Shown here: one piece after another, positions 48,195 through 52,208 of the stretch | Layout of the letters: each line of letters starts with the position of its first letter | Position numbering within the stretch: the first letter of the stretch is position 1 | Source of the DNA: Vampirovibrio chlorellavorus | GTDB taxonomy: Bacteria > Cyanobacteriota > Vampirovibrionia > Vampirovibrionales > Vampirovibrionaceae | Length of the DNA stretch: 64,000 bases | Assembly: GCF_003149375.1 (NCBI RefSeq) | Contig: NZ_QFWH01000001.1 | Coordinates: 88,753 to 152,752 of the forward strand | Direction: 5' to 3' | The notes under the pieces: generated by a model | What the model was told of the DNA's origin: nothing | Database searches by the model: none | The model's input: the letters and a program-made list of their open reading frames with translations, nothing else | Translations under genes and position numbers: made by a program

Positions 48195-49796
48195 ATGGCC
48201 CAGTCAACTTCTGAAAACCAGCCGCCTGAACTCAAGCTGTTCAATACCTTGACCGGCCAATTAGAGCCTTTTGCGCCGCTCGATCCGGCGGGAAAGCAGG
48301 TCAAGCTGTACGTGTGCGGCCCCACGGTCTACGATGACGCCCACCTGGGCCATGCCCGCTGCTACATCACCTGGGACGTGCTGTATCGCTTCCTGAAGTT
48401 TCTGGGGTACGACGTGAAGTACGTGCGCAACGTAACCGATGTGGACGATAAAATCCTGAACCGGGCCAAAGAGCGGGGGGAAACGCCTGCAGCGCTGGCT
48501 GAGCGAAATTATGAAAGTTTTGCGGCGGACATGAAAGCCCTTAACGTGCTTCCTCCCGATGAGGAGCCCCGAGCCACCCAGTATATTGGGGACATGCTAC
48601 AAGGCATTCAGGCTTTGATGGACAAAGGGGCGGCCTATCGCACCGTCGATGGCAGCGTGTACTTTCGGGTTTCCACCAAGGCCGATTACGGCAAGCTGAA
48701 ATTTGGCACCCATGACCCGGAAGCGCTCAAAAAGCATCTGGAGGATTTAAAATCCGGGGCCCGGGTGGACGTGGATGACGAGAAAGAATCGCCGCTGGAT
48801 TTTGCCCTGTGGAAAGCGGTGCCCTTGAGCGATCCCCATGGCTGGGAATCCCCGTGGCCGGGCGACGGTACGGACAAAGGCTGGGGTCGTCCCGGCTGGC
48901 ATATGGAATGTTCCGCAATGAACCACGCCGTGTTTGGGGCGCAGATTGATATTCATGCCGGTGGGGCCGATTTGATTTTTCCGCACCACGAGAATGAAAT
49001 TGCCCAAAGTGAAGCCTGGACAGGCTGTACGCCCTTTGCCCAATATTGGCTGCACAATGGATTTGTGAATGTCAGCGGGGAGAAAATGTCCAAGAGTCTG
49101 GGCAATTTTTCCACCATTAAAAAACTGTTAGAGCGCTACGACGCCAATACCATCCGCTATTTTTTGCTGACCAACCACTATCGTATGCCGGTGGATTTCA
49201 ACGATGAAGCCTTGCAAGCCGCGGAAAACTGGGTAAAAGATCGGCATAAAGCATTAAAAATGATTTGTGACGCATTTAATATGGATGCGTTCCATTTGCG
49301 GTCCTGGTGTATTGAAAATTATTCGCCTGATGTGTCAGTGCAATATAAAAATATGTACGCATTATGTCTGGCAATGGCAGAAGACTCCAACACGCCTCGG
49401 GCTCTGAGTTTTCTGAATGCCTCTTTGGCTGAATTGCGGGATGCATTCAGAGAAGGGCGTTCTGAGGCTGTAAAAATTAAATTAAAAGAATGCGTATCCA
49501 TTTTTACACTTCTTGGTTTTAATCTGAATCTTATATTTCAAAAGAAAAGTTTGCCTTTAGATGAAATTAATACAATCTACCGGGAAATGACCGGAAAATG
49601 GTTAGAGCCTGATGCAGAGCCAGAAGTGATGTTCACAGAAATCATTGAGATGCGCAAGCAAGCCAAAGTCACTAAAAACTGGACTCAAGCCGATGCCATT
49701 CGGAAGCATTTTACAGATATTGGCTTGCAAATCCTCGACAACAAGGACGGCACCACCACGGTGGAAAAAGACGGCGTGGAAATTCTGCGTGTCTGA
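48195..49796 (+). CDS. cysS: Cysteinyl-tRNA synthetase
   Basis: The 533-aa class I synthetase charges tRNA-Cys. The zinc-site Cys in [18 protein letters not shown] near 40 with the HIGH motif variant [25 protein letters not shown] and the KMSKS loop EKMSKSLGN near 300 are intact. ATG 48195 has AGGA nine bases upstream. The segment about 49236-49640, coding the anticodon-binding region, is visibly richer in A and T with different codons (AAA, TTA, ATT) than the rest; the frame is intact. Overlaps mrnC by eight bases. Confidence 0.96.
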
Positions 49797-50199
49797 AGCG
49801 GCGGATTCCGCATTCCACAACCTGCCCCATCCCCGGGCGCTGGCGTTTTTGGGCGATGCCGTGTTTGAGCTGTTTCTGCGGGAGTTGGCCGTGGCTCAAG
49901 GGTTATCCCAGTCCCGGGACCTGCACGACTTTACCACCCGCCACGCCAAGGCCAGCGCTCAGGTGGCCTTGTTTCATCAGCTCAAACCCCATTTAACGGA
50001 AGCGGAATTGGAGCTGGTGCGTCAGGGGCGCAATGTGGGGGTGGGCACCGGCCGTCGCTCGGATCAGGCGGCTCATCGGCAAGCCACCGGCCTGGAGGCC
50101 TTGCTGGGGGCCTTGGCCCTGCAACAGCCATCCCGACTCTCTGAACTTTGGGCGTTGGCTCGGCCCTGGCTGTTCAATCCCCCGGGCGCTGAAGGGTAA
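49789..50199 (+). CDS. mrnC: Mini-ribonuclease III
   Basis: This 136-aa RNase III-like protein has the catalytic motif ALAFLGDAVFELFLREL near 18-35 and RQATGLEALLGAL near 100, and lacks a double-stranded RNA-binding domain. Mini-III matures 23S rRNA in Firmicutes, where it also follows cysS. The start is GTG 49789, inside the end of cysS; the long upstream frame is a shadow of cysS. The last gene before the repeat region. Confidence 0.88.
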   Translation: MSEAADSAFHNLPHPRALAFLGDAVFELFLRELAVAQGLSQSRDLHDFTTRHAKASAQVALFHQLKPHLTEAELELVRQGRNVGVGTGRRSDQAAHRQATGLEALLGALALQQPSRLSELWALARPWLFNPPGAEG

Positions 50200-50229: not shown

Positions 50230-50249
50230 TTGTAACGATGTGTTTACAA
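50230..50249 (+). promoter_or_regulatory. Inverted-repeat box of unit 1
   Basis: TTGTAA and TTACAA arms, eight bases apart, form a perfect inverted repeat about 25 bases upstream of GTTTTTATG. Unit 2 (50481-50500) is the same; in unit 3 (50734) the second arm has decayed to TTACAC. This is likely a regulator site. Confidence 0.5.
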
Positions 50250-50252
50250 GAC

Positions 50253-50282
50253 GTTCCAAGGTGAAAACTAATTGTTTTTATG
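50253..50282 (+). promoter_or_regulatory. GTTCCAA-N14-GTTTTTATG element of unit 1
   Basis: GTTCCAA and GTTTTTATG are exactly 14 bases apart, just before the putative RNA. The same spacing holds at 50504-50533 and 50757-50786. The 3' half matches the GTTTTTATT elements elsewhere in the window. Confidence 0.5.
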
Positions 50283-50284
50283 CA

Positions 50285-50379
50285 ATCACAAGGACAAGGC
50301 TGGATAAATTTAAAACTCTCAAATTTCAAATTTGCGCTTTAACGCCCACCGTACCGGTTGTGGCGTTTTTTATTTTTTT
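50285..50379 (+). ncRNA. Candidate small RNA, unit 1
   Basis: About 95 bases follow the promoter-like element. They begin with the conserved CAATCACAAGGACAAGGCTG and end in a terminator (AACGCC-CAC-CG paired with CG-GTTGTG-GGCGTT, then a T tract). AATTTGCGCT at 50329-50338, before the terminator, is complementary to the leader of two genes near 60 and 61 kb. Near-identical to unit 3 over 78 bases. The 5' end is not known. Confidence 0.55.
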
Positions 50380-50380
50380 C
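50341..50380 (+). terminator. Intrinsic terminator of unit 1
   Basis: An 11-bp stem with two bulged T and a three-base loop is followed by a long T tract. The same structure recurs at 50596 and 50845. Confidence 0.85.
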
Positions 50381-50480
50381 ACAACCCACGCTTCTCATTG
50401 GGTACCCTATTAGAAATCAAGATTGGATGCCCATAAATTGCGCCCCTAGAAAGCCTCTATTTTCAGCATTTCACCCCCAC

Positions 50481-50733
50481 TTGTAACGATGCGTTTACAA
50501 GACGTTCCAAGGTGAAAATTGATTGTTTTTATGCAATCACAAGGACAAGGCTGGATTTAATTTAAATCAACTTTCTTTCTTTCATATTGCGCTTTAACGC
50601 CCACCGTACCGGTTGTGGCGTTTTTTATTTTTTTCACCGCACACGCTTCTCATGCGGCATTCTATTTGAAATCAAGATTGGATGCCCGTAATTGCGCCAC
50701 TGGAAAAGGGTTTATACCGGCATTCAGCTCCAG
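50481..50733 (+). repeat. Tandem repeat unit 2 (about 253 bp)
   Basis: The same layout as unit 1. The middle of the putative RNA (after CAAGGCTGGAT) has diverged to T/A/C-rich sequence, while the 5' CAATCACAAGG block, TTGCGCTTTAACGCC and the terminator are conserved. Confidence 0.9.
50536..50634 (+). ncRNA. Candidate small RNA, unit 2
   Basis: This copy has the same 5' block and terminator (50596-50634) but only TTGCGCT of the complementary stretch. GCAAT near the 5' end and ATTGC before the terminator could pair to close the middle. The middle of the molecule differs from units 1 and 3. Confidence 0.5.
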
Positions 50734-50877
50734 TTGTAACGATACATTTACACACTGTTCCAAAGTAAAAATTAATTGTTTTTATGCAATCACAAGGACA
50801 AGGCTGGATAAATTTAAAACTCTCAAATTTCAAATTTGCGCTTTAACGCCCACCGACTCGGTTGTGGCGTTTTTTAT
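50734..50877 (+). repeat. Tandem repeat unit 3, 3' truncated
   Basis: The third copy starts at TTGTAACGATACATTTACAC and ends at its terminator (50845-50877). The spacer after the terminator is missing because the MCE gene begins. The terminator loop is changed (ACT in place of TAC) but the stem is kept. Confidence 0.85.
50789..50877 (+). ncRNA. Candidate small RNA, unit 3
   Basis: The sequence is identical to unit 1 from GTTTTTATG through the first terminator arm (78 bases), including AATTTGCGCT at 50833-50842. Retention of this block while flanks diverge suggests selection or recent gene conversion. Confidence 0.55.
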
Positions 50878-50904: not shown

Positions 50905-52161
50905 CTACGAAAAGAAGAAGAGAATAATGTCCCACACCGGCTGCCAAAAAGTGGCATCCGATACCTGGGGCAAGGCCCGGTCAGCCTCGGGGGAGACAAT
51001 ACCCGGCCTCGCTTGATCCGACGGGCTCCAATGGCTTGAATTACCGGCTCCGGACGATGCGTCTGGCTTTATAACCCCTTTTTGTATCAAGGTATCCGCT
51101 GTCTTGTGCCCGTCCAGCAGAATCTGGTTAAACTGTTGTACCTTCTGCCGGGCAGGGGCCAAATCCCAGGTTTTACCCGCAGGAAAGGTTTGCTCCAGCC
51201 GAGCCAGGGCCCCATCCATGGTCTGCTGACCCCGTTCAATATCATCCAGCCACTGGGGCAAAGGCTTGCGCAAAACAACTTGCCCCACACGAGTCAAACT
51301 GTTGTTAAACCGGATGACGCGCTGGTTAAAGCGATTCAACTGATGGGTAATTTGATGCGCCAATTTGCCTTCACGGACAAACGCATGATGAAAATGGTCG
51401 AGATCATTGTCGAGCGATAACAGCAATGGTCGCAGTTGGCTGGGCTGGGTGATCGCGTTGACCTTGTTGGCACCCTCATAAAAGGTCTGAAAAGTTTTGA
51501 TGCCTTCTTGCGTGTAAGTATTAACATCCTTTTGCAAGCTGCCCAGGGCCCGGTTCAGGCTGGCCGTATTGCGCGTGGCCACCGTGGACATTGCCAGGGC
51601 TTCCCTGATATTAAATTGCAGTTCTTCCACGGGTTTTCGCTTCCCGAAAAAGTCAGAGATATTTTCAGAGCCTTTTTGCAAGGCCTGCACGCTGTCCAAA
51701 CTGGCGTTCAGGGTATCCCGCATGCTAATGGGTTCTTTGACCCGATAGACCGGCTTCCCATCTTTTGGGGGTTCAGGGGTCTCTGGTAAGGTCACCTCAA
51801 TACTCTTGGCCCCACCCAGTCCGGTAAACAACACCGTAAAAACGGAGCCTGAGGGAATCTGGATGGCGTCCGGATCGGTTTGAATGGTCACATCCACGTG
51901 ATCCCGCTCAATCCGAATGTTATCCACAAACCCGATATCAGTGCCCATCAGGCGAACGGGAGCCCCCCGACTGATCTCGTTGGCGTTCAAAAATTCCAGA
52001 TGAATGGTCTGGCCCCGCTTGGCGGGCAGCACAATGGCCACCATGTACAGGCCGTAAAGCAGCAATGCGGCCATCAGCGCCCACAGCAACAGGTCTGATA
52101 TAATAGCCCTATCCAGGGGCACTTTTTGGTTGATAGATTTTAGAAAACGATTGATCTTCAT
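50905..52161 (-). CDS. MCE-family lipid-transport protein, stand-alone
   Basis: The 418-aa protein (ATG 52161; ATG 52182 also possible) has one membrane segment (about 20-45) and an MCE domain (about 50-125, LNANEISRGAPVRLMGTDIGFVD, FTGLGGAKSIEVTL). A long helical region follows (about 160-370). The C-terminus is a proline/serine-rich stretch and a hydrophobic end (FWQPVWDIILFFFS). It resembles the MCE protein at 35178 but has no adjacent permease or ATPase; it may use those of the mla operon. It is convergent with the repeat RNAs. Confidence 0.85.
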   Translation of the reverse strand: MKINRFLKSINQKVPLDRAIISDLLLWALMAALLLYGLYMVAIVLPAKRGQTIHLEFLNANEISRGAPVRLMGTDIGFVDNIRIERDHVDVTIQTDPDAIQIPSGSVFTVLFTGLGGAKSIEVTLPETPEPPKDGKPVYRVKEPISMRDTLNASLDSVQALQKGSENISDFFGKRKPVEELQFNIREALAMSTVATRNTASLNRALGSLQKDVNTYTQEGIKTFQTFYEGANKVNAITQPSQLRPLLLSLDNDLDHFHHAFVREGKLAHQITHQLNRFNQRVIRFNNSLTRVGQVVLRKPLPQWLDDIERGQQTMDGALARLEQTFPAGKTWDLAPARQKVQQFNQILLDGHKTADTLIQKGVIKPDASSGAGNSSHWSPSDQARPGIVSPEADRALPQVSDATFWQPVWDIILFFFS

Positions 52162-52208
52162 GACACTAGGATACAACACCATGCTTGTGCAGAGAAAAGT
52201 AAGCATCG

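Follow-up and report, generated by a model that had tools for sequence, protein, structure and literature searches.

Vampirovibrio is a non-photosynthetic, predatory and alga-killing relative of the cyanobacteria, and a search of the titles and abstracts of the literature found no paper on small RNAs of the Vampirovibrionia. In one of its genomes, a short array of three tandem units raises the question of what these units might produce, and why they are kept in several copies. The array lies between the gene of a Mini-III RNase (mrnC) and a convergent mlaD gene, within a window of 64 kb, that is, the whole stretch of DNA that was analysed (G000:C1:88753-152752, in a genome of 2.79 Mb). Here, G000 denotes the genome carrying the window and G001 to G004 the other four Vampirovibrio genomes compared. 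The best explanation of the array as a whole, to which we give an even chance, is that it comprises three paralogous sRNA genes of a new, Vampirovibrio-specific family acting by base pairing. That the units are real, terminated sRNA genes is very probable judging from their sequence; base pairing as their main action falls slightly short of even. If real, they would count among the first sRNA families from a cyanobacterial lineage that is predatory and non-photosynthetic, encoded at a compact and conserved locus.

The three head-to-tail units occupy 50230-50875 on the plus strand and start at 50230, 50481 and 50734, with spacings of 251 and 253 bp; since the repeat is long and its copies are in exact register, no statistical test is needed to establish it. 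Each unit contains, in this order, TTGTAA-N8-TTACAA half-sites, a GTTCC box, the core TTGTTTTTATGCAATCACAAGG, ACAAGGCTGG, an A/T-rich or pyrimidine-rich middle, TGCGCTTTAACGCC, a hairpin and T6; the conserved segment at the 5' side closes with GGCTGG. In the 64-kb window, GTTTTTATG is found on the plus strand only at 50274, 50525 and 50778, and CAATCACAAGGACAAGGCTG only at 50283, 50534 and 50787. The initial annotation had described three tandem units, each with promoter, RNA and terminator, and this layout bears it out, with promoter-like regions in each. The 78-base identity it reported between units 1 and 3, counted from GTTTTTATG, is contained in an identical run of 83 bases (50269-50351 and 50773-50855), and the middle of unit 2 is indeed unlike that of the other two. 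Its inverted-repeat box is perfect in units 1 and 2; unit 3 has an imperfect version (TTACAC), and relatives have a degenerate one. The features are as follows.

49645-50199, plus strand: upstream neighbour, Mini-III type RNase with a Ribonuclease_3 domain; the true start is probably nearer 49791
50230-50249, plus strand: unit 1, inverted repeat TTGTAA-N8-TTACAA, a possible activator site ahead of the promoter (sequence; half-sites at equal distance in relatives)
50253-50257, plus strand: unit 1, GTTCC, -35-like box (invariant in 18 of 18 aligned type I copies, with fixed spacing to the core)
50272-50293, plus strand: unit 1, promoter-like core TTGTTTTTATGCAATCACAAGG (found family-wide; control with the reversed pattern about 0)
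50287-50371, plus strand: unit 1, predicted sRNA of 85 nt, variant A (putative 5' end)
50298-50303, plus strand: unit 1, GGCTGG motif (invariant among aligned type I RNAs)
50341-50371, plus strand: unit 1, terminator hairpin and T-run (folding)
50481-50500, plus strand: unit 2, inverted repeat TTGTAA-N8-TTACAA (sequence)
50504-50508, plus strand: unit 2, GTTCC box (alignment)
50523-50544, plus strand: unit 2, promoter-like core (pattern match)
50538-50626, plus strand: unit 2, predicted sRNA of 89 nt, variant B, with the middle CTTTCTTTCTTTC (counterpart: first unit of G004)
50596-50626, plus strand: unit 2, terminator hairpin and T-run (folding)
50734-50753, plus strand: unit 3, imperfect inverted repeat TTGTAA-N8-TTACAC (sequence)
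50757-50761, plus strand: unit 3, GTTCC box (alignment)
50776-50797, plus strand: unit 3, promoter-like core (pattern match)
50791-50875, plus strand: unit 3, predicted sRNA of 85 nt, variant A (sequence comparison)
50845-50875, plus strand: unit 3, terminator hairpin and T-run, the loop unlike that of units 1 and 2 and the stem kept (folding)
50905-52206, minus strand: downstream convergent neighbour, MlaD/MCE protein (domain annotation)

Transcription would run from near CACAAGG, the predicted 5' end, to the T-run, giving RNAs of 85, 89 and 85 nt that are predicted to have little secondary structure outside the terminator. The terminator hairpins fold at -12.5 kcal/mol (z -2.7 to -3.1 relative to dinucleotide shuffles, which reach -5.8 to -6.4 kcal/mol), and T6 comes after them, in agreement with the intrinsic, poly-T terminators noted initially in all units; a simple terminator scan did not pick them up, most likely owing to bulges in the stem. 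All 13 terminators taken from different loci fold into a stem adjoining the T-run (-11 to -26 kcal/mol), and these stems change in sequence between loci without losing the fold, while GGCTGG and TGCGCTT are kept, which is the pattern that selection on a terminated RNA would leave. An intrinsic terminator of its own, conserved in relatives, is what is expected of a free-standing sRNA gene, and each array unit has one.

BLAST and pattern searches found about two dozen relatives of the unit across all five Vampirovibrio species compared. The mrnC-mlaD locus holds three units in G000, two in G002, four in G004 and one in G001; a further copy lies upstream of dnaX in G000, G002, G004 and G001, and the dinB-DUF3228 locus has copies in G000, G002 and G004 and a diverged one in G003. 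The count of three thus stands for the array, but a Vampirovibrio genome carries about four to six RNA genes of this kind, some dispersed and some in tandem. When 19 copies are aligned, the middle and the terminator arms vary, and little or no variation is seen in the core, AGGCTGG, the GC of TGCGC and the T-run. GGCTGG occurs 26 times in the 19 RNAs, one to three times in each, compared with 0.4 in shuffles. AGGCTGG, TGCGCTT and the terminator are the marks specific to the predicted RNAs, and RNAs of this GGCTGG type (type I) were seen only in Vampirovibrio; outside the order, the scores from a class-wide model search were weak throughout and looked like chance. The counterpart of variant B is unit 1 of G004, with which it shares 85% identity; between that G004 unit and the other array units the identity is only 71-79%, and the paralogues of the array are therefore probably older than the species split. 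The relatives keep both the terminator and the 5' block, the two parts whose absence from relatives had been named at the outset as speaking against an sRNA. The reading as a multi-copy regulatory RNA remains the best one, given the lack of a conserved ORF, the 5' block and terminator in every relative, the synteny, the variable middle and the lack of an Rfam match.

The GGCTGG RNA upstream of dnaX has a tandem companion, another short RNA, which is rich in C and U (CUCCCUCCCUC), shares the core and has a terminator to itself (L073:112 in G000; L079, minus strand, G004:C26:316189; L124:255 in G002:C241). A separate observation concerns the only phage record with an array-type RNA, MW495066.1 ('Microcystis phage MaAM05', PhiMa05, a 'jumbo phage'), where the RNA lies at 81625-81716 (locus L200:15001-15092; see L201, L202) between dinB and a gene that aligns with DUF3228. 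The gene order at this point is that of the Vampirovibrio chromosome, with 77-86% DNA identity over kilobases, and the stretches examined hold mainly bacterial housekeeping genes; those seen include rpsA, rplU-rpmA, secE-nusG-rplK-rplA, trpS, proS, aspS, ftsH, lepA, ruvA, fliA, purF, purL and a type III secretin gene. A 2026 paper presents MW495066 as the phage with the largest set of ribosomal proteins and the Vampirovibrio copies as prophages, and its main text has 'contamination' only in a reference title (PMC13157829). As a lead from the stretches examined, the record is more simply read as being, probably for the most part, Vampirovibrio chromosome, in which a small prophage may lie near 207-217 kb; its origin bears on the claim of a phage with six ribosomal proteins (PMC13157829).

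The region ahead of the predicted RNAs has a wider distribution. When up to three mismatches are allowed, each of the 10 genomes of the family has 4-22 occurrences of the 22-bp core TTGTTTTTATGCAATCACAAGG, and 0 or 1 of the reversed pattern; a limit of two mismatches leaves the core in 10/10 of these genomes, in 3/4 genomes from a second family and in 0/4 from a third. Exact matches in GTDB genomes are confined to Vampirovibrio assemblies, one 'Cyanobacteria bacterium' and one Formosa record. In a gap-free alignment of the sites, the core stands at fixed spacing from a GTTCC, AACATC or GCACAAAA box, and the GTTCC and AACATC sites have TTTACA-like half-sites further upstream. A terminator follows within 210 nt at 25/25 GTTCC sites with a full core, compared with 17/52 other sites (Fisher 2e-9, or 2e-5 once orthologues are collapsed) and with 14/77 control stretches; the -35-like box tracks the predicted type of transcript. 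The core also precedes CU-rich short RNAs and glycine/tyrosine-rich protein genes, and some GTTCC promoters with a weaker core (62-position model) precede protein genes in other genera. The GTTTTTATG element of the initial annotation is accordingly present in each unit, but as part of a promoter-like core common to many genes of the family and not specific to the RNAs, with start sites that are predicted; it could instead be a conserved leader. A promoter scan found no sigma-70 consensus on the strand of the array. A SigF-like sigma factor (G000:C2:217929) seems to follow the distribution of the core better than FliA, as far as scores judged by eye can tell; FliA as its reader has no support, being present in 18/18 genomes including those of the third family, which lack the strict core.

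Several observations touch on the genes behind this core. Promoters with an AACATC or a GTTCC box precede predicted short transcripts that are CU-rich and have terminators, in the genus, in other genera and in the second family (L114, L119, L129, L095, L098, L100, L145); these transcripts are probably a wider class of pyrimidine-rich RNAs. Most GCACAAAA sites stand ahead of genes for proteins that are glycine/tyrosine-rich or otherwise of low complexity, and most of these proteins lack a Pfam family; the glycine/tyrosine-rich ones have this composition at the N-terminus, followed by hydrophobic stretches (L074:1130-2791, L081, L089, L093, L116), gave no Pfam family in those scanned, and are candidate secreted or contact proteins. 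Leaders of low-complexity protein genes contain repeated GGGACA (20 vs. 2.0 expected, orthologues counted separately; L072, L074, L081, L083, L089, L126), in part overlapping the ribosome-binding site, as candidate sites for CsrA or for other contacts between RNA and protein. In another genus, a near-identical GTTCC promoter precedes each of three protein genes arranged in tandem at intervals of about 710 bp (L184; G005:C1:1413756, 1414467, 1415177), the same putative promoter amplified with proteins instead of RNAs. We tentatively propose, as a possibility that is less likely than not, that Vampirovibrionaceae and the sister family share an undescribed promoter type, in which a constant core TTGTTTTTATRYAWWCACARGG is combined with an exchangeable -35-like box (GTTCC, AACATC or GCACAAAA) that assigns each gene to one of three groups: GGCTGG sRNAs, CU-rich sRNAs, or contact or secreted proteins of low complexity. 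The tandem array would be the dosage-amplified sRNA arm of a regulon serving predation. If the RNAs are real, the shared core also yields a short list of genes likely to be switched on together in the life cycle.

How might the RNAs act? Every gene is equipped with a separate promoter-like region, made up of half-sites, GTTCC box and TTGTTTTTATGCAATCACAAGG core, and with a separate terminator. The RNAs would be produced alongside the other members of a regulon behind this core, namely short CU-rich RNAs and surface or secreted proteins of low complexity. The array RNAs may then act in trans on mRNAs by base pairing. The pairing part would be the 5' stretch with GGCUGG, the variable middle, which is rich in pyrimidines (CUCUUCUUUCAU, CUUUCUUUCUUUC), or both, since structure outside the terminator is weak and would leave them open; the partners would be purine-rich translation start regions. 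The common ends and different middles of variants A and B suggest sibling base-pairing RNAs, which could have partly different targets, while extra copies would raise dosage. Outside the sRNA loci, no near-complement of the 5' segment with fewer than two mismatches was found across the genus, and the duplex energies of the array RNAs with the translation starts of three co-regulated genes were unremarkable. The genome gave no match to the Hfq family PF17209 in Pfam, control genomes having matched, though a divergent Hfq could escape such a search.

The main rival to base pairing is binding of CsrA through the 5' ACAAGGA, the core of an ANGGA site, which would make the RNAs small sponges or CsrA-controlled transcripts, tied to co-regulated mRNAs with repeated AGGGACA leaders. 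CsrA is present in G000 and in 5/5 Vampirovibrio genomes, ANGGA is enriched in type I RNAs (18 vs. 7.2, reached in 0/200 shuffles), and the CACAAA-class leaders are rich in ANGGA (23 vs. 12.3) and GGGACA (20 vs. 2.0). Yet the array RNA carries a single ANGGA outside its only stable hairpin, whereas CsrB and RsmX are defined by several GGA in hairpin loops; the dnaX-type RNAs have lost the site (CACAAGGCTGG) and kept AGGCTGG, the more conserved motif, and CsrA also occurs in the third family, in which the search for the strict element gave nothing, so that we consider this reading unlikely. Titration of another protein, one that recognises AGGCUGG or pyrimidine tracts, is improbable: GGCTGG occurs one to three times per RNA, the sister RNAs have CU-rich bodies and G000 encodes a tandem-RRM protein, but this protein is missing from G001 and G003, which have the RNAs, and from G007, which has the promoter element. 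A decoy for the RRM protein was rejected as the general explanation on account of this phylogenetic mismatch. The protein itself, a bacterial one with two tandem RRM domains (G000:C2:383124-383627), is found in part of the order, and the third family has single-RRM proteins.

The array might also be a byproduct, a cassette of promoter and terminator duplicated by unequal crossing-over and yielding a functionless short transcript. The rapid shifts in copy number (1-4) and the two target searches that found none, by near-complements and by duplex energies, fit this view, but it is distinctly unlikely given that GGCTGG, TGCGCTT and the terminator fold are kept across species with diverged middles and stems, that synteny is conserved at three loci and that variant B is conserved between species. 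It is barely credible that the units encode a small peptide (ATGCAATCACAAGGACAAGGCTGG..., MQSQGQGW...): many copies have an ATG within the core, and units 1 and 2 an AGGTGA upstream, but the latter is broken in unit 3, the frame stops after 9 codons in unit 2 and after 20 in units 1 and 3, and unit 1 of G004 and members of G003 and G001 no longer have the ATG, with TATATA or TATACA in its place in several members. A small-protein gene was thus rejected, there being no conserved start or frame across the aligned relatives. A mobile or palindromic repeat element (MITE/REP-like), to which the dispersed and tandem copies could point, is equally remote: the order is always promoter then terminator, orthologous copies occupy the same places in different species, a synteny on which such an element was rejected, and the plasmids searched gave no match.

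Altogether, three paralogous sRNA genes acting by base pairing remain the preferred reading, and known systems offer partial parallels. The initial annotation had not recognised the family, and a search of Rfam 15 (4227 families) at gathering score found only three tRNAs in the window. The best weak match at the locus, to ncS54 of Burkholderia (RF02871), overlaps the terminator half with 15.5 bits, against a gathering score of 43, and an E of about 1.2, as expected by chance. The Yfr sRNAs of cyanobacteria, a sister lineage, are likewise short, with terminators and some in multiple copies, but no Rfam match to them was found in the window at gathering score, nor at the locus up to E 5, save chance matches to another family. 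With the CsrA-sequestering RNAs CsrB, CsrC and RsmXYZ the array shares the ANGGA motif, the multiple copies and a CsrA in the genus; its RNA differs in having one motif, placed outside any stable hairpin loop, in the loss of the motif in one subfamily and in the lack of an Rfam match. The sibling sRNAs Qrr and OmrA/B differ from the array RNAs, which have no sequence match to them and come from a genome in which Pfam detects no Hfq. Their features are general knowledge and the resemblance does not come from a test; like the array, these siblings comprise several similar genes with their own promoters and terminators, sometimes in tandem, with common ends and variable segments.
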